A stretch of DNA of 64,000 nucleotides from Acanthamoeba sp. SK_2022b (Eukaryota; Discosea; Longamoebia; Acanthamoebidae). The translations under genes and the position numbers were made by a program. The notes under the pieces are model-generated. The model was not told the DNA's origin and ran no database searches. It worked only from the letters and a program-made list of their open reading frames with translations. Shown one piece after another: positions 33,503-41,230 of the stretch. The DNA lies in contig JANDJZ010000083.1 of the NCBI GenBank assembly GCA_027943245.1, positions 1 through 64,000 of the forward strand. The letters run 5' to 3'. Within the stretch, counting starts at the first letter, position 1, and every line of letters begins with the position of its first letter.

Positions 33503-33989
33503 CGCGCATGATGTGTCAGACAGCGTGCTCCCTCCCCGCCCCACGCCACTCCCATAAGGGAGAAGCGCGCGAGGAGGGGCTCGCTAACAATTATTGTAGA
33601 CATAAGTGCCAGTACACCAACCTAAAATATTACCATTGCGTTATCTCGTTGGAGTAGATACTGACAGCAACAACAACAACCCCTCACCACCCACACACAC
33701 AACAACAACCATGCGACTGCGATCGGCTCTGTTGGGAGGAGCTGCATCGTGATCAGTGTCACTGAGCCCTGCTAAACCAGCATCGACAGAGAAGCTCTCG
33801 TGGGTCTTGCTCAACGTTGAGCTGCCCAGGACATCGATGTTCTGGCATCATGGCCGGTCCGCAGGCAGAAAATATCTGGAACGTGCACTTTTCTTGTCAC
33901 ATTCTTGAATTAATGAGGAACTTCACGAAAAAAAAAAGGTGCCCCTACAGCCACGCCACCTCTGCGCCCCGACTGGCTGCCTGCCATGT

Positions 33990-33997
33990 TATAAAAG
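33990..33997 (+). promoter_or_regulatory. TATA box of BCS1-like gene
   Basis: TATAAAAG lies 91 bp upstream of the ATG at 34081, within an otherwise GC-rich leader. Confidence 0.65.
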
Positions 33998-34080
33998 CAC
34001 CCACGACCTTTCCCTTGCATCATCAGCATCTCAGCTCTCCCCTCCTCAACACCACACATTACTTCCGCGTGAAACGACCA

Positions 34081-35685
34081 ATGGAGGAGCTGCTTGGTGC
34101 ATACCTCAAGGGCCGCGTGGGGGCTCTGGCGGACAACGACGTGTTCTCCGGCGGCCTGATGCTGCTCGTCGTGGGCGTGGTGGCGGCCTACGTGCACTGG
34201 CTCTCTCAGGTGCTGTGGGAGCGGTTGCAGCGGCAGTTCCTGGTGTCGCTCGAGGTGCGGAAGGAGGACGAGGCCTTCCACTGGCTTATGAAGTGGCTCG
34301 CCCTGCAGACCGAGAAGACCAACGGCCGCGAGCTGAGCATGCTCACCACGCGCGAGAACACCCGCGATCGGTGGGAGGGCGCCGAGGCCGCTACCAAGCC
34401 CGAGCTGCACTTCGGGCCTGCGCCAGGCCTCCACTTTCTCCGGTTCCGGGGCCGCATCGTTACCGTGGAACGCACGGTCAAGGAAAACCAGTTTGGCGGC
34501 GGAAACGGCAACGGGCTCGAGCTGCAGGAGACGCTGAAGCTCACCACCTACGGGCGCGACCCGCGGGTGCTGAAGGAGCTGGCCACGAGCGCCATGAACC
34601 ACTCGCTGGGCGAGGAGCTGGGCAAGACGCTGATCTTCCAGCCCAAGTACGGGTGGACCGGGACCTGGCGCAAGCTGATGGCCATCGAGAAGCGGTCGAT
34701 CGAGTCGGTCCACTTCCCGCGGGGCACGCTCGAGAAGCTGCTGGCCGATGTGCGCGAGTTCTTCGCGATGCGCGACTGGTACAAGCGGAGGGGCATCCCC
34801 CACCGCCGCGGCCTCATGCTCTACGGGCCTCCCGGCAACGGCAAGTCGTCGTTCGCCGCGGCCCTGGCCGGCGAGCTGGGCCTCAACCTGTGCGTATGCA
34901 GCCTGGCCAACACGAGCCTCGACGACGACGACCTGCAGGAGTACATGCGCAAGATGCCCAAGGGCAGCATCCTCCTGCTCGAGGACATCGACGCCGCCTT
35001 TGTCCACCGCAAGAAGAACGTGGACGCCGGCAACAACAGCAACAAGGTCACCTTCAGCGGCCTCCTCAACGCGCTCGACGGCGCCGTGGCCTTTGAGGGC
35101 TCGCTCGTCCTCATGACCACCAACCACCGCGAGAAGCTCGACCCCGCCCTCACCCGCCCCGGCCGAGTCGACTTTGCCCTCTACGTCGGTCTCGCCAACC
35201 GCGACCAGATCGAGCGCCTCTTCGCCTACTTCTACCAGCCGTGGGAGGCCGCCGCCGAGCTCGAGAAGGCCGAGAAGGACGTCGAGCTGCTTGCCGCCGC
35301 CAAGAAGCAGGCCGCCGCTCGCCGTGCCGAGATTGAGAGCGAGCGCGCCCGCGTCAACAAGCTGGCCGTCGAGTTCGCCTGCCTCGTGCCCGAGGAGCAG
35401 CTTTCGATGGCCAGCCTCCAGGGCTACCTCCTCCGCTTCAAGCTCGACCCGCAGGCCGCCATCGACAACGTCGCTCAGTTCGTTGCCGAGGAGCAGGCAC
35501 GCATGACCGAGGAGCAGGCCCGACGCAAGAAGGAGGAGGCCGAAGAGAGGGAGGCGGAGGAGAAGGAGGCCAAGGAGAAGGAGAAGGAGGAATCCACCCC
35601 CTCCATGGCTTCTCCTTCTATGGCTGCGACCAAGGTCAATGATGAGAAGCTGGCGCTGGTCGATGCCGTTAGCGTGTCAGCTTGA
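34081..35685 (+). CDS. BCS1-like mitochondrial AAA ATPase (intronless)
   Basis: Single exon of 534 residues. The open frame continues upstream, but the ATG at 34081 was chosen because it follows the TATA box by 91 bp and gives the typical BCS1 start: a short N-terminus, a membrane helix (LMLLVVGVVAAYVHWL, about 24-40), then the BCS1-specific domain (HFGPAPGLHFLRFRG, TLKLTTYGRDPRVLKEL, TLIFQP, SIESVHFPRGTLEKLL). The AAA module follows with Walker A GPPGNGKSS (about 249-257), Walker B ILLLEDID (about 297), sensor residues in VLMTTNHREKLDPAL and the Arg-finger segment RPGRVD. BCS1 inserts the Rieske Fe-S protein into respiratory complex III of the inner mitochondrial membrane. The C-terminal 70 residues are an extra Glu/Lys-rich coiled tail. 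Absence of introns is unusual for this window. Confidence 0.92.
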   Translation: MEELLGAYLKGRVGALADNDVFSGGLMLLVVGVVAAYVHWLSQVLWERLQRQFLVSLEVRKEDEAFHWLMKWLALQTEKTNGRELSMLTTRENTRDRWEGAEAATKPELHFGPAPGLHFLRFRGRIVTVERTVKENQFGGGNGNGLELQETLKLTTYGRDPRVLKELATSAMNHSLGEELGKTLIFQPKYGWTGTWRKLMAIEKRSIESVHFPRGTLEKLLADVREFFAMRDWYKRRGIPHRRGLMLYGPPGNGKSSFAAALAGELGLNLCVCSLANTSLDDDDLQEYMRKMPKGSILLLEDIDAAFVHRKKNVDAGNNSNKVTFSGLLNALDGAVAFEGSLVLMTTNHREKLDPALTRPGRVDFALYVGLANRDQIERLFAYFYQPWEAAAELEKAEKDVELLAAAKKQAAARRAEIESERARVNKLAVEFACLVPEEQLSMASLQGYLLRFKLDPQAAIDNVAQFVAEEQARMTEEQARRKKEEAEEREAEEKEAKEKEKEESTPSMASPSMAATKVNDEKLALVDAVSVSA

Positions 35686-35875: not shown

Positions 35876-36625
35876 TCAACCAAGGAGAAAGTGACAGGGG
35901 AAGGGGAACTCGTTCACAGGCAGTGGGGGAGAGAGGTGAGGGGAGGAAGAGGAAGAGGAAGAGGAAGAGGCGTAGTCGAGTACAAATGCGTCGTCGTCGT
36001 GAGCACAGTCTGAGCTCACGTCGTTGAGGAGGAAGGCGATGGACGTAGGATTCGTCGTGCTCACCGAGCTGCTCGCTCCTGTCGTGGTCTTCTGCTCACT
36101 TCTACGCCGCCTTCTGCTCATTGTTGAGACGCTTACCGCTGTCGAAGTGCTGTCGTGCGTCTGAGCTCTGCGCCGATGCGGTAGTGGGGCGGTGGCAGCC
36201 GTCTGCGTGCTTGTCCCGTTATTCTGTTCTTGGCACTCTTTCGCCACCTTCCTCCTCTTGGTGGGCGTCGGTGTGGGTGTTGTCTTATTGTCCACACGGC
36301 TTGCCGTGCGACGCCGCCGGCGGGGCGTAGGGGCCCAGGCGGAGTCAAGCGACGGCAGGAGTCCATTCGCGGATGGGGTCGTGGCGGCCTTGACAGCGAG
36401 CGAGGCGAGGAAACTGTGCACGTGACCCATCGACCCGGCGTCAGAGAGCAGGGCCGACGCCAGAGTTGGAATGGATGTCAGTGGCACGTGTTCGTGCCCA
36501 CCCATCACGGCCCTATGCGCCAGCGGTCCCGTTTGCGGGGCGCTCGGGGACGGTGGGGAGGAAGATGGTGGGGACAGGCCAGCAGACAAGGTGGGCGAGC
36601 TCCTCCTCAGCATGGTGGACGTCAT
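35876..36625 (-). CDS. Orphan Ser/Arg-rich protein, copy A of duplicated family (putative nuclear)
   Basis: Single-exon gene of about 249 residues, paralogous to the gene at 38430-39350. Three blocks are conserved between the copies: an N-terminal block MGGxEHVPLTSIPTLASALL plus DAGSMxHVHSFLASLAVKAA, a central SPTSIAFLLND-type motif (here NPTSIAFLLND), and a C-terminal EFPFPCHF end. Between them are basic runs (RRRRR, TKRRKVAKE) that look like nuclear signals and a Ser run next to acidic residues. The ATG at 36625 was chosen by comparison with the paralogue; an earlier in-frame ATG at 36730 exists. I recognise no known family. A regulatory role in the nucleus is only an inference from composition. 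Confidence 0.68.
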   Translation of the reverse strand: MTSTMLRRSSPTLSAGLSPPSSSPPSPSAPQTGPLAHRAVMGGHEHVPLTSIPTLASALLSDAGSMGHVHSFLASLAVKAATTPSANGLLPSLDSAWAPTPRRRRRTASRVDNKTTPTPTPTKRRKVAKECQEQNNGTSTQTAATAPLPHRRRAQTHDSTSTAVSVSTMSRRRRRSEQKTTTGASSSVSTTNPTSIAFLLNDVSSDCAHDDDAFVLDYASSSSSSSSSPHLSPPLPVNEFPFPCHFLLG

Positions 36626-37076
36626 GTGGCGGCGGGTGTGTACAATGAGGGTGGGCTTGCTAGCTGTGATGTGCACACGATGTGGGGTGTGAGTGAACAA
36701 TAGCTGGTAGCCTTGCCAGCTGCCCGTCATTTATTCAGTTCCTTCCAGATCTGCACGTGTGGAGTGAACGCTTCCTGTTGATTAGGAACGTAAGATCTCT
36801 CAGCAACTCGACCGACGGGTTACGCGCGACGTTTCATTTGTCGACACAAGATGTTCGGAATTAACTGCGAAAGCCAACCACTAATCGCTTTCCCTCTTGA
36901 CTCCCCGAGTTTTCCCACCGTCGCGTGCACGGCGAGTTCAACGGTATGCCAGGTGGACAAAGCAGAAACTGGTGCAGAGCTGTGCGACTGCCTCACACAC
37001 AACTTTCCATAACCCTCTTCAGCTGTCCCCTCCCCCCACGCACATGCTCCGAAGTGCCCTCGCCCATCGCCGTAGC

Positions 37077-37830
37077 CTAGACAGGTTCCTCCTCTTGGAA
37101 CAGGTCCACGTTGTTGTTGCGTCGCCAACTGCCCGCCGACGATACCGAGGAGAACGACGTGGTGGAGACCGACTTCTGCAATCGCGCGCTCTCCTCGTCC
37201 TCGGCCTCGGCCTCATGGCTGGCGCCCGAGTGGCTCGACGTGGCGACCATTCGGCTGCGGTAGAGCGCGCCGAGGGGCGCCCGTGGCGTGTGCTCCACTG
37301 TGCTGTGCACAGCGGCAGTTGCGGGCGGGTCGCCATGCGCGCGCCTGTAGAGCAACACGCCCACTGTCGCTGCCGCCGCGCCCAGCAAGATCAAGAGGAC
37401 CGGCACCTGTGACATGAACACCACGCAACGGGTGATCAGGAGAGAGAGCTCGTCTCCTTCGATGAGGAGAATTGATAGGCCAATGTGCATTGGGAGGAAT
37501 GTCCTCTACCCCGACCGCAAGGCCGACGCCCAGGCCGACTTTGGCGCCTTCGGACAGGCCGCCGCCATTGGACTGCCGCACCAAGGTCCCAGCCGAGGGC
37601 GATGGGGAGCGCGAAGGGTTGCGGCTGGGCGTAGCCGAGGGCAACCTGGATGACGAGGGCTGGGGAGTTGGTGAGACTGAGGCTGGCAAGCTCGAGTAGA
37701 CTGGGAAGGCCGAGTAGGAGGGTGCGGCTGGCGAGGGGCTCGTGAACTGCGCCACAGAGTGGTCGACGTTGAAGCCGATGAGGACGACAAAGAAGAGGGC
37801 GAGCATGAAGACAAGGCGGCTTGGGGCCAT
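37077..37830 (-). CDS. Signal-peptide/single-TM protein with Ser-Pro-rich ectodomain, copy A
   Basis: Two exons, 37510-37830 and 37077-37406, give 216 residues. Layout: signal peptide (RLVFMLALFFVVLIGF), Ser/Pro/Ala-rich extracellular stretch, a SEGAKVGLGVGLAVG segment ending at the intron, one TM helix (VPVLLILLGAAAATVGVLLY), the stop-transfer RRAHGD, and a cytoplasmic tail with YRSRM, KSVSTTSFSSVSSAGSW and a terminal NNNVDLFQEEEPV. The paralogue at 40135-41230 shares the intron position, the TM layout and these tail motifs. It looks like a small type I surface protein with a heavily glycosylated stalk; the conserved tail suggests a cytoplasmic partner. No family recognised. Confidence 0.72.
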
Positions 37831-38173
37831 CGCGGTTGCGTGGCTTGTGTGTGCCAAGTCAGGTTGGGGTGACGATGACGATGATGACGAGCGGATGGCC
37901 CTCAACGTGGTGAAACTGGTCGAGGTGGGCGCTGTAGCTGTTCATTCTCCATCACCACGAAGGAGCGCGCCTGATGGTTGCTATAATTCTGGCTGTAGGC
38001 CGTGGTGCTGTAAAACATGCGTGGCCTTGCCACCTTCTGCCTGCTGCAGCTCCCTGTGCTTAACATTGAGGAGATTTGAGAAAGAGGCGTGCTGGGGTGT
38101 GAGGGAGACTTGACAAAGCCCCAACCAACAACGTGTTCAAAAGGGAGGTGACAGCGGCTGCAGGACATGTTTA

Positions 38174-38248
38174 CGCGCTCTACCACTGAGCTAGCCGAGC
38201 ACAGGCCCGGCCCAGGAGTCGAACCTGGGGCCACGAGATCTTCAGTCT
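38174..38248 (-). tRNA. Candidate circularly permuted tRNA-Phe(GAA)
   Basis: On the minus strand the 3' half of a tRNA (38248-38204) precedes the 5' half (38200-38174), with only three bases between. Rejoined, the halves make a 72-nt cloverleaf with every stem paired. Acceptor strands are GCTCGGC and GCCGGGC (one G-U), the D arm is GCTC-AGTGGTA-GAGC, the anticodon stem is CG plus AGA against TCTCG, the anticodon loop is CTGAAGA (GAA, Phe), the variable loop is TGGCC, and the T arm is CCAGG-TTCGACT-CCTGG. Positions T8, A14, G18, G19, A21, T33, C48, G53, TTC and A58 are all as expected. No normal-order partner half lies on either side. It could instead be the relic of two tandem tRNA genes. No clear bulge-helix-bulge was found at the junction (28/29). 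Confidence 0.6.
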
Positions 38249-38429
38249 ATCGATGAACCAGCACGCCATGAGCACCCCGCAGTGCACGCATGAACCGATG
38301 CCCCTGTGTCAGTGACCTAATTGGGACTAGGAAGTCGGGAAAAAGAACGCCCAAACAAACACGTGCGCACATCAAAAATCGACAAAAAGTTCGTGTGTTT
38401 GTTGCGGCCCAACAAGTTTAGTTTGTGCT

Positions 38430-39350
38430 TCAATGGGCGGACGTCGTCACCCTTCGCTCCAGCACGAAGTGGCAAGGGAATGGGAAGGGCCCGCCGTCTG
38501 TTGTTGGCGGAGGCGGTGGTGACAGGGAGGGAGAGGAGGAGGCGGGAGAGGGCAAAGAAGAGGAGGAGGATGAAGAAAAGGAGTCACAGAAGAAGGAGTC
38601 ATCGTAGTTGGTGTCATTGTCGTTGAGGAGAAAGGCTATTGACGTCGGGCTCAGCACGTTCTCCTGCTGTCGATGCTTTTGCTCCTCTCCCTCCGCCATG
38701 ACAGGCGTTGGCCTTGAAACTCGCCGTTGGCGAGCGCCCGTGGTCGTGTTGCTTCGCTGCCTGCTGGTTCGTCGCTTTCTGCTCGACGTAGCCGTGGTGG
38801 TCGTCGTGTCGCTCTCGTGACCACCGCCCACGGGCGTGGCTGTGCTTGTGGTGTTGGTGCTCGTGGCGCTGCTGGCCGCCCGTCGCGTGCGTCGCTGCTT
38901 GCGCGGCCGCGTAGTCGAGGTGGCGCTGCTGGCCTCGTCGGAATCGGCTCCCGCGCCAGACTCCTCCGGGTCGACGGCCGCAGGCGCACGTCGGCGTCGG
39001 CGCTGGGGAGGCGCTGCCCAGGCGGCGGCGTGGCCAAAGGGCGAGTGTGGGTCGTCGCTTGCAGACGAAGCGGCCTTGACAGCGAGCGAGGCGAGGAAGC
39101 TGTGCACGTGGTGCATGGACCCGGCATCAGCGAGCAGGGCCGACGCCAGCGTCGGAATGGAGGTCAGCGGCACGTGTTCCTGTCCACCCATCACAACCTG
39201 CTGGGAGGAAGGCGACCGAGGTGGGCTTGTAGTCGTGGTCATCATCGTGGGAGACGACACGGCGGTGTGATGGGCCTGCGAGGGTGAGGGGGCAGCTGCT
39301 TCGGAGTAGTTGGTGCTGTATTGGTTGTGGTGGCGCGCGCCCAGCAGCAT
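38430..39350 (-). CDS. Orphan Ser/Arg-rich protein, copy B of duplicated family (putative nuclear)
   Basis: Single-exon gene of 306 residues, the paralogue of 35876-36625. It carries the same MGGQEHVPLTSIPTLASALL and DAGSMHHVHSFLASLAVKAA blocks, a LSPTSIAFLLND motif and a PFPFPCHFVLE end followed by a short extra tail. The centre is full of basic clusters (QRRRRRA, RPRKQRRTRR, RKRRTSRQR), consistent with nucleic-acid binding or nuclear import, and a Ser/Asp-rich region follows. The long antisense frame over the same stretch is composition-driven and was not called. Same orientation and same downstream order as copy A, which shows that the two-gene unit was duplicated in tandem. Confidence 0.72.
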   Translation of the reverse strand: MLLGARHHNQYSTNYSEAAAPSPSQAHHTAVSSPTMMTTTTSPPRSPSSQQVVMGGQEHVPLTSIPTLASALLADAGSMHHVHSFLASLAVKAASSASDDPHSPFGHAAAWAAPPQRRRRRAPAAVDPEESGAGADSDEASSATSTTRPRKQRRTRRAASSATSTNTTSTATPVGGGHESDTTTTTATSSRKRRTSRQRSNTTTGARQRRVSRPTPVMAEGEEQKHRQQENVLSPTSIAFLLNDNDTNYDDSFFCDSFSSSSSSSLPSPASSSPSLSPPPPPTTDGGPFPFPCHFVLERRVTTSAH

Positions 39351-40134
39351 AACGTTTTAACGGCTGTGTGTAGGTTTGGTTGGGAAGGCGCGCGAGGAGA
39401 AGGGTTTCTGTTGGCTGGGGTAGTGTGGCAGGTGCTGGGAGCTTCTCAAGCAAGCCGGATCGGTGGTGGCTGTGGTTGGCGGGCAGCAGCCTAGAGCGAG
39501 AGTGGGCCGGGGTTGTGAGGTGTTCGGGAAGTGGACGCGGCACGATGGGGAACGCGATGCGCGTCTCTCTCTGCGTTGAGTAAGATAAAAATTCAATCGG
39601 GGAGAGGGGGCTCTCACTTTCAACATCTATGCCCGGTCGTTACGATCCACGATTGGCCACACGTGGAAGGTCCGTTGGGCAGGAACTTAAGGTCGCAAAA
39701 CTCCGGTCGGACAGGAGGTAGACAGCAGGTCGATTGGAGAAGGAAAATTCGGAGAATCAATATCTGGCGCACTTTTGGACATTAATCGTGCGTCTCCTAG
39801 GAGCGCGCTGACCAATTACGGCGGATTTGGTCGGAGTCATCGCCCAATCGACGGTTGTTCGATCTGTGACAGGCTGCACATGACCTACACGCGTGGGCCC
39901 AGCTTCGACGGCTTGGCGCGTGGACAACGCAGAAAATAGGTGCACCAATCCGTGATGTCAGCTTTGAGTCACCGTATCGTTACAGGTTCACCAGCAGTCG
40001 GTCTATTTCGCGTAATAAGATGCCCCTCCTACCCACGTGACCACGTTGTAACTCAACATTTCCATTCTAACTTTCGTTGGCGACTTTCCGCTGACACCGC
40101 GTGCTGTGCCCGGGCTGAACGCGAAACGTGTGCT
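39351..40134. other. Intergenic region inside the duplicated cassette
   Basis: I see no supported exon. It holds the upstream region of copy B of the orphan nuclear-like gene and the 3' flank of the TM gene. Confidence 0.5.
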
Positions 40135-41230
40135 TCACACGGGCTGAATGTCGGCGAAGAGCTCCACGTTGTGGTTGTGCGCCCAGCTGTCAACTGATGA
40201 GGTGGCCGATGACATGGAGGTCTGGGACATGGTCTTCTGTAGGGTGCCGTCGGCTGCCTCGAGGTCTTCGTCGGCGGCCAGACCAGAGACCGGCGGGTTG
40301 GTGGCAGCGCTAGAGGCCGGTATCACCCGGCTGCGGTACTGGGCTGTGCCGGCGGCCGTGCGCGGGCCTGGCTTGCGGGAGGAGGATGAAGCGTTGAACG
40401 ATCGCTCGCTCTTGCCGGCGCGCCGATACAGGATCACGCCCACCACCACCGTCACTATCGCCACCACGATGAGGAGCGCAGGCAGCTGTGTGTTGGACAC
40501 ATGTTGTAAGTAAGTGTGGGCAAGGTAAGAAGACAAGCCAGCCGCATTCTGCAAGCAGCCTATGAAAGCCAAGTCGCTGTACCCCAGCTGCCAAGCCCAC
40601 TCCCAGACCGATCTTTGCTTCGCTGGAGAGACCGCTGTCGCCGCCACCGTCGGACCTGACCGCGCCTCCCGGAGAGGATGAGGGGGAAGGCACCCGCGAC
40701 GGGCTATTGCTCGGGCTGACCCCGGGCGAGGGCGAGGCCGACGGTTGGGGCGACGACGAGGACGACGATGCCGGAGAAGGCGTGCGTGAGGGAGAGGCAG
40801 CGGCCGACGGCGTGGACGACGCTGAGGAAGCAGCCGAAGGTGATGCTGCAGCCGTGGGAGTGGGCGCATCAGGAGACGACGAGACCGACGGCTGTGGCGA
40901 AGACGACCTTGACGGCGAGGGCGCGGCGGGCGAAGACGAAGGAGACGGAGCGGCGGGAGAAGAAGAGGGAGACGGGGCGGCAGGCGAAGAGGAGGGAGAC
41001 GGGGCGGCGGGTGAAGAGGAAGGCGAAGGTGCAGCTGGAGACGGCGAAGGCGACGCCGCTGCTGGAGAAGGTGAAGGGTCTGGTGAGGCCGCTGCTGGAG
41101 ATGAGGAAGCGTCTGGCGACGTCGATTGGGCATGGGCCGGGCGATGATGACTCAGCGCAATAACCAAGAAGAGATAAAAGATGGCTAGCCATCGTGTGGC
41201 AGAACCTGTGAGGTGGTGATGTGCGACCAT
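40135..41230 (-). CDS. Signal-peptide/single-TM protein with (SPAAPSPS)n ectodomain, copy B
   Basis: Two exons, 40583-41230 and 40135-40485, give 332 residues. Signal peptide (WLAIFYLFLVIAL then AHAQS), then an ectodomain dominated by repeats of the type SPAAPSPSSSPAAPSPS, then SSEAKIGLGVGLAAG at the intron, a TM helix (LPALLIVVAIVTVVVGVILY), RRAGKS, and a tail with YRSRV, KTMSQTSMSSATSSVDSW and a terminal NHNVELFADIQPV. It is longer than copy A only because of extra ectodomain repeats. The hydroxyproline/serine-type repeat suggests an extended, probably O-glycosylated stalk at the cell surface. Ligand and partner are unknown. Confidence 0.78.

Follow-up and report, generated by a model that had tools for sequence, protein, structure and literature searches.

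The 64,000-nt stretch of Acanthamoeba sp. SK_2022b DNA analyzed here (GenBank assembly GCA_027943245.1, contig JANDJZ010000083.1, positions 1 to 64,000; hereafter the window) carries on its minus strand a complete tRNA whose 3′ half is encoded ahead of its 5′ half. The 44.9-Mb genome contains two related loci of this kind, each encoding a complete tRNA second half first and each surrounded by conserved sequence. We refer to 38174-38248 (−), together with its leader and trailer, as the window locus, and to C1028:16652-16799 as the second locus.

The whole conserved block of the window locus spans 38142-38280 on the minus strand and consists of leader, 3′ half, linker, 5′ half and trailer; it is matched by R1, a model built from the two loci, and similarity of the flanks ends near it. 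The leader (38249-38280), GCGGGGTGC..ATGGC..GCTGGT..TCGAT, is conserved with the second locus and able to pair with the trailer. The tRNA 3′ half (38204-38248, tRNA positions 29-73) reads AGA-CTGAAGA-TCTCG-TGGCC-CCAGG-TTCGACT-CCTGG-GCCGGGC-C on the minus strand from 38248 to 38204, and includes the anticodon loop CTGAAGA, the T arm, the 3′ acceptor strand and C73. ARAGORN, applied to the rejoined sequence, places the anticodon GAA at 38241-38243, and a perfect B-box-like sequence, GGTTCGACTCC (38215-38225), the sole zero-mismatch match in the window, lies in the T arm. By direct reading, a 3-nt linker, TGT (38201-38203), separates the two acceptor strands. The 5′ half (38174-38200, tRNA positions 1-28), which reads GCTCGGC-TA-GCTC-AGTGGTA-GAGC-G-CG from 38200 to 38174, supplies the 5′ acceptor strand, the D arm, G26, C27 and G28. 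The trailer, TAAACATGTCCTGCAGCCGCTGTCACCTCCC (38143-38173), is conserved with the second locus by local alignment, and a pattern search with its core, CCNGCAGCCGCNGTCACC, gave zero-mismatch matches only at the two loci. It is abutted by TTTT (38139-38142), a possible terminator for RNA polymerase III (Pol III); the T run lies 31 nt after the junction in the window locus and 49 nt after it in the second locus.

Rejoined, the halves of the window locus give a 72-nt tRNA that ARAGORN calls tRNA-Phe(GAA) with a score of 126.1, compared with 102.9 to 125.2 for the normal-order tRNAs in the same comparison, a set that includes bacterial-looking and mitochondrial ones. Pairing is complete in the acceptor stem (seven pairs, one of them T-G), and four D, five anticodon and five T pairs form as well. 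In genomic order, ARAGORN finds no tRNA at the window locus with introns off or on, and the Rfam model for ordinary tRNA reaches 13.3 bits there, under its cut-off of 29; an Rfam scan of the window returned no family above cut-off. A strict scan for permuted tRNAs (requiring five T-stem, seven acceptor and four D-stem pairs, together with U8, A14, a D-loop GG and a linker of at most 40 nt) identified one place in the window and none in 60 dinucleotide-shuffled windows (7.68 Mb, both strands counted), which rules out a chance origin of the pattern. The initial annotation of this DNA had given the coordinates, the 3′-half-first order, the three-base spacer and the 28/29 placement of the junction exactly, as direct reading confirms; the complete 72-nt cloverleaf with anticodon GAA and the conserved bases, and the pairing between halves that it judged unlikely by chance, are borne out by ARAGORN and by the strict scan, respectively. 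Its identification of the product as tRNA-Phe is not supported: tRNA-Phe is expected to carry A73 and G20, the discriminator here is C73, position 20 is T, and the genome has 13 ordinary tRNA-Phe genes.

The second locus lies on the minus strand of a putatively amoebal contig and encodes a permuted tRNA-Tyr(GTA) with the junction at 29/30 and an 8-nt linker. It reads GGGGTGCAGATGGCATCGCTGGTACTTCGAA / GGCTGTAGACCCGT..CCGCCGGA / TTCACACT / CCGGTGGTAGCTCAGTTGGTAGAGCGACG / AAAAAGAACAACCGGCAGCCGCGGTCACCC on that strand, and its rejoined form scores 126.9 in ARAGORN. The product has C1:G72 and A73, which are Tyr identity elements and are the same in the normal tRNA-Tyr of this genome; among 36 distinct intron-free tRNA genes, C at the first position occurs only in one odd tRNA-Phe variant. 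The second locus also has a weak match to Proteo-phage-1 RNA (L053:1505-1572, minus strand; 25.8 bits, cut-off 42), which includes an exact CCGGCAGCC in the trailer.

The two permuted products are 69% identical to each other, and the resemblance between the loci is strongest outside the tRNA stems. With pads taken as misses, identity covers 24 of 33 leader columns and 23 of 34 trailer columns, whereas each acceptor strand matches in 2 of 7 places and the 3′ strand of the anticodon stem in 1 of 5. Over 60 nt, the local alignment scores are 28 for the leader and 32 for the trailer; of 5000 shuffles, 2 and 0, respectively, score as high. The D arm and the loops are also alike, and these are near-universal in tRNAs. 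A recently copied block was considered and rejected: the 40 nt beyond leader and trailer are unrelated on both sides, and no further copy was found. Flanks of 1140 nt also look unrelated: they align with scores of 30 and 29, and a single shuffle of each gives 25 and 23.

Ten of the 33 base pairs differ on both sides between the loci with pairing kept, and 98.5% of cells are paired, which 0 of 500 shuffles reach; these counts come from two sequences in a hand-made alignment, and the structure derives from those very sequences, which favors it, its tRNA part being set by the tRNA fold independently of both. Sliding the partner strands as a control lowered the pairing to 31-55%. As judged from their sequences, the two loci are relatives whose anatomy is under selection.

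We searched for further members in several ways. The Rfam model of the bacterial RNA YrlA (RF02553) matches four places in the 44.9-Mb genome up to an E value of 10 among the candidates scored: C1028:16662-16767 (48.9 bits, E 1.1e-8), the window locus (35.4 bits, E 8.5e-5, both E values being for the genome), a tandem tRNA pair on a mitochondrial-looking contig (25.6 bits), and a site that overlaps a tRNA-Asn gene at its 3′ end (19.2 bits). R1 scores the window and second loci at 134 and 171 by construction; its best match elsewhere in the genome loci scanned is 30.8 bits, at a normal tRNA-Asn gene, and its best outside the genome is 43 bits, on a viral contig (L124) and covering the body only. 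Because the R1 scan covered the window and 140 of 152 retrieved loci rather than the whole genome, and 46 of 2466 first-look candidates were scored with YrlA, the genome may hold further permuted tRNAs. A leader pattern with up to two mismatches matched 71 times against 21 in the reversed control; the second locus alone is mismatch-free, and the window locus is missed because the pattern has a fixed gap and there is a 1-nt gap there. A trailer pattern with one mismatch matched 4 times against 7 in the control, two of the four being the window and second loci. On viral contigs, the leader and trailer patterns match 2 and 52 stretches, and R1 finds the whole block in none of them. The viral contig L124 (IMGVR_UViG_3300036820_000072) carries at 43-182 (−) two tandem permuted tRNA-like bodies with YrlA scores of 41.3 and 37.5 bits, under the cut-off; each acceptor stem ends in a hairpin loop, and between the bodies there is no full anticodon arm.

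Ordinary tRNA genes supply the background for this comparison. A normal-order copy of the same halves elsewhere, which the initial annotation had named, together with a lack of conservation in relatives, as evidence against a permuted gene, was looked for and not found, and DNA searches with the rejoined sequences match only the halves at each locus. A pattern allowing up to two mismatches occurs at 21 places: the window locus, 13 ordinary tRNA-Phe(GAA) genes, 12 of which are identical over the gene, and seven others that are not tRNA-Phe by ARAGORN. A normal tRNA-Tyr gene (L037) has a 23-nt intron at 37/38, and ARAGORN mislabels it as Ile because of how the intron is placed. Compared with 37 distinct tRNA sequences from the retrieved loci, bacterial-looking ones included, the two permuted products reach at most 71% and 75% identity. 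Among these loci, one tRNA-Asn(GTT) sequence has many scattered copies, several of them as inverted pairs (L017-L031). Contigs C1005, C21 and C197 (L008, L014-L016), which show CCA-encoding tRNAs, an Ile-Ala pair of tRNAs or a predicted tmRNA, look bacterial, and the assembly seems to hold bacterial sequence. C294 (L055:440-769) is A-T-rich with closely packed tRNAs, including directly adjacent Gln and Lys, and is probably mitochondrial.

The window contig is eukaryotic, since it encodes a BCS1-type mitochondrial ATPase at 33820-35682. The window locus lies between the same-strand reading frames 37213-37905 and 38430-39350, within a minus-strand region (35876-41230) in which, by eye, a long protein stretch is common to frames 35876-36730 and 38430-39350, and frames 37213-37905 and 40310-41230 are alike. 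These likenesses suggest that a unit of two genes has been duplicated in tandem; blastn of the region aligned 125 bp at 89.6%, and the four frames have no match in Pfam. A copy of the RNA locus in the neighboring unit was sought and discarded, as only one copy was found there. As for promoter elements, six B-box-like sequences with at most one mismatch occur in the window, not above chance (34 of 100 shuffles). By eye, the leader motif TGGC..GCTGG precedes the B box by 43 nt in each locus, compared with a spacing of 44 in normal tRNA-Phe. An A box in the leader was rejected as a candidate: with a matrix from 35 of 36 tRNA genes, 431 and 250 of 1000 shuffles were as good. Permuted genes have their A and B boxes in inverted order, which is reported not to suit TFIIIC (PMC3978253).

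Leader and trailer can pair with each other in nearly the same helices in both loci. In the second locus the pairing energy is −27.0 kcal/mol, and 32 of 2000 shuffles are as good. An extra 3-bp helix beside the junction (CAT/ATG in the window locus, TTC/GAA in the second locus) is one column apart in the alignment and therefore not counted as covariation. Both leaders have TCGAW directly before the 3′ half (38249-38253 in the window), the CG of which could pair with bases 41-43 or 27-29 in competition with the anticodon stem.

At the cuts that the cloverleaf would need, no strict or relaxed bulge-helix-bulge (BHB) motif was found at either junction, forms without the central 4-bp helix being unscored; such forms exist (PMC3978253). 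As a positive control, the intron of the normal tRNA-Tyr passes in the relaxed form and fails in the strict form. The second locus has a perfect 4-bp helix, CGAA/TTCG, near its junction, but the expected cut on the trailer strand falls inside this helix. Splicing at 28/29, as implied by the initial annotation, is not supported, no strict or relaxed BHB having been found at that position.

We tentatively regard as likeliest that the RNA works in linear, unspliced form, as a tRNA mimic on a terminal stem, built like bacterial YrlA. The locus would then be one of two genes for a small RNA of ~140-150 nt, probably a Pol III product, with a circularly permuted but complete tRNA fold at its center. 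Base-pairing of leader with trailer would build a terminal stem, which would branch off the tRNA at the anticodon stem's 5′ strand and on which a protein would perhaps dock. Several observations point this way: (i) The ends of the two RNAs are more alike in their letters than the acceptor strands or the 3′ anticodon-stem strand. (ii) The second locus has the same architecture, kept through the ten double changes. (iii) YrlA is the best Rfam match of both loci. (iv) Neither junction has a BHB, in a test whose control passed in the relaxed form. (v) A spliced product would be redundant, because ordinary Phe and Tyr genes exist. (vi) C73 misfits tRNA-Phe. (vii) A gene in C662 encodes a stand-alone TROVE domain (Pfam 316.9 bits), a make-up that we take to be like that of Ro60; a second TROVE gene, in C409, also has DUF4062 and is presumably TEP1-like.

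Other observations weigh on the opposite side. The anticodon arm is intact in both loci (5 pairs, U33 and a purine at 37), and the anticodon loops are identical to those of the genome's own tRNA-Phe and tRNA-Tyr. YrlA itself is described with D, T and acceptor arms only and no anticodon arm (PMC8394870). The YrlA scores of 35.4 and 48.9 bits are both below the gathering score of 69, and such a score is not specific, as the mitochondrial pair at 25.6 and the viral contig L124 at 41.3 bits illustrate. Rfam searches of the two loci gave no Y RNA family of the vertebrate type up to an E value of 10. In the window locus alone, the leader-trailer pairing falls within the range of chance, with 247 of 2000 shuffles doing as well; 11 of the 12 terminal-stem pairs are invariant and the remaining one is broken in the window locus, so that the stem itself has no support from covariation. 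The whole RNAs do not fold clearly better than shuffles (z of 0.08 and −1.46), and the intended folds have energies of −35.3 and −43.8 kcal/mol against −52.6 and −57.8 for the lowest-energy folds of the two loci. The TROVE protein of C662 is distant from solved chains, with none at 0.001 and a best E value of 0.0047, and has no NCBIfam match.

Somewhat less probable, though close enough that the order could easily reverse, is that these are true circularly permuted tRNA genes, the second locus yielding tRNA-Tyr(GUA) and the window locus a GAA-anticodon tRNA. The leader-trailer stem would hold the linear precursor together, and cleavage and ligation at the junction in the anticodon stem would turn it into a circle; the acceptor linker would then be opened by RNase P and tRNase Z, and CCA would be added. 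The ARAGORN scores of the rejoined forms, above those of all normal-order tRNAs compared, favor this route, as do the anticodon-stem pairs across the junction, which are double-changed yet kept, the decoding-grade anticodon arms with loops equal to those of normal tRNA-Phe and tRNA-Tyr, and the Tyr-like ends of the second locus. In-stem junctions have precedents: 50/51 in a red alga (PMC3978253), and 30/31 in an archaeal split tRNA-Lys, where a 13-nt pairing of the flanks accompanies the join (PMC3218864). The linkers of 3 and 8 nt fall inside the range of 1 to 74 nt given for known permuted genes (PMC3978253). Yet eukaryotic splicing endonucleases are described as tied to 37/38, Cyanidioschyzon merolae excepted (PMC3978253), and the missing BHB speaks against splicing with the same proviso for forms without the central helix. 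The GAA product has C73 and no G20, normal Phe and Tyr genes are present, and the strongly conserved trailer would have no obvious reason. In its fullest form, in which a non-algal eukaryote has working permuted tRNA genes joined at 28/29 and 29/30 with no BHB and with the leader-trailer stem as the guide, the proposal is in our view slightly less probable still.

Another structured RNA with a tRNA-like module appears improbable. It might be a decoy for tRNA-binding enzymes, or might be cut only at the acceptor linker, yielding an RNA in two pieces like the product of a permuted tmRNA gene. The intended fold leaves the linker unpaired, and RNase P and tRNase Z should recognize acceptor and T arm regardless of the junction; against this, there is no direct evidence, and no known family reaches its cut-off. 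Least probable is the alternative offered in the initial annotation, tandem tRNA genes reduced to one junction, in which the outer halves decayed and the functionless inner halves mimic a permuted tRNA: the tRNA-like spacing of leader and 3′ half (43 against 44 nt) would fit it, but the second locus has the same leader, trailer and fold around a different tRNA body with pairing kept through ten double changes, and a decaying gene would not conserve the very ends that it is supposed to have lost while its body stays paired.

Because there are two loci with anatomy under selection, the question of splicing is directly testable. Should it prove to be spliced, the range of permuted tRNA genes would extend to another branch of eukaryotes, in which the 37/38 splicing rule would fail. 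If, as we tentatively prefer, the RNA works unspliced, it would be a eukaryotic tRNA mimic with YrlA-like architecture that bears on the origins of both permuted tRNA genes and Y RNAs. Among the matches listed, literature from 2014 on permuted tRNA included none on amoebozoans by title; a search from 2008 on Acanthamoeba and permuted tRNA gave a general review only, and one on Acanthamoeba and Ro60 gave nothing on such RNAs by title.

Four known systems invite comparison. Permuted two-piece tmRNA genes share an inside-out tRNA-like domain and differ in being bacterial and in having a message part (in part from PMC3978253). The archaeal split tRNA-Lys(CUU) is likewise joined inside the anticodon stem, at 30/31, with pairing flanks; it is made from two transcripts and is reported to have a canonical BHB, in contrast to the single permuted transcript expected here and the absence of a BHB in our test (PMC3218864). 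The permuted tRNA genes of Cyanidioschyzon merolae, prasinophyte green algae, the Bigelowiella nucleomorph and Thermofilum pendens resemble the Acanthamoeba loci in the 3′-half-first order, the short linker, the cloverleaf on rejoining and the downstream T run (PMC3978253). The Acanthamoeba loci differ from them in their anticodon-stem junctions (28/29 and 29/30) with no BHB found, in the conservation of leader and trailer across two genes, in the coexistence of ordinary genes with the same anticodon, and in a host that is neither alga nor archaeon. The two loci score below the gathering cut-off of YrlA, and their complete anticodon arm with real anticodons sets them apart from it. Like them, it has the order T arm, acceptor hairpin, D arm, with a helix joining the flanks of the module; its RNA ends form a terminal stem, as leader and trailer may do in the two loci (PMC8394870).
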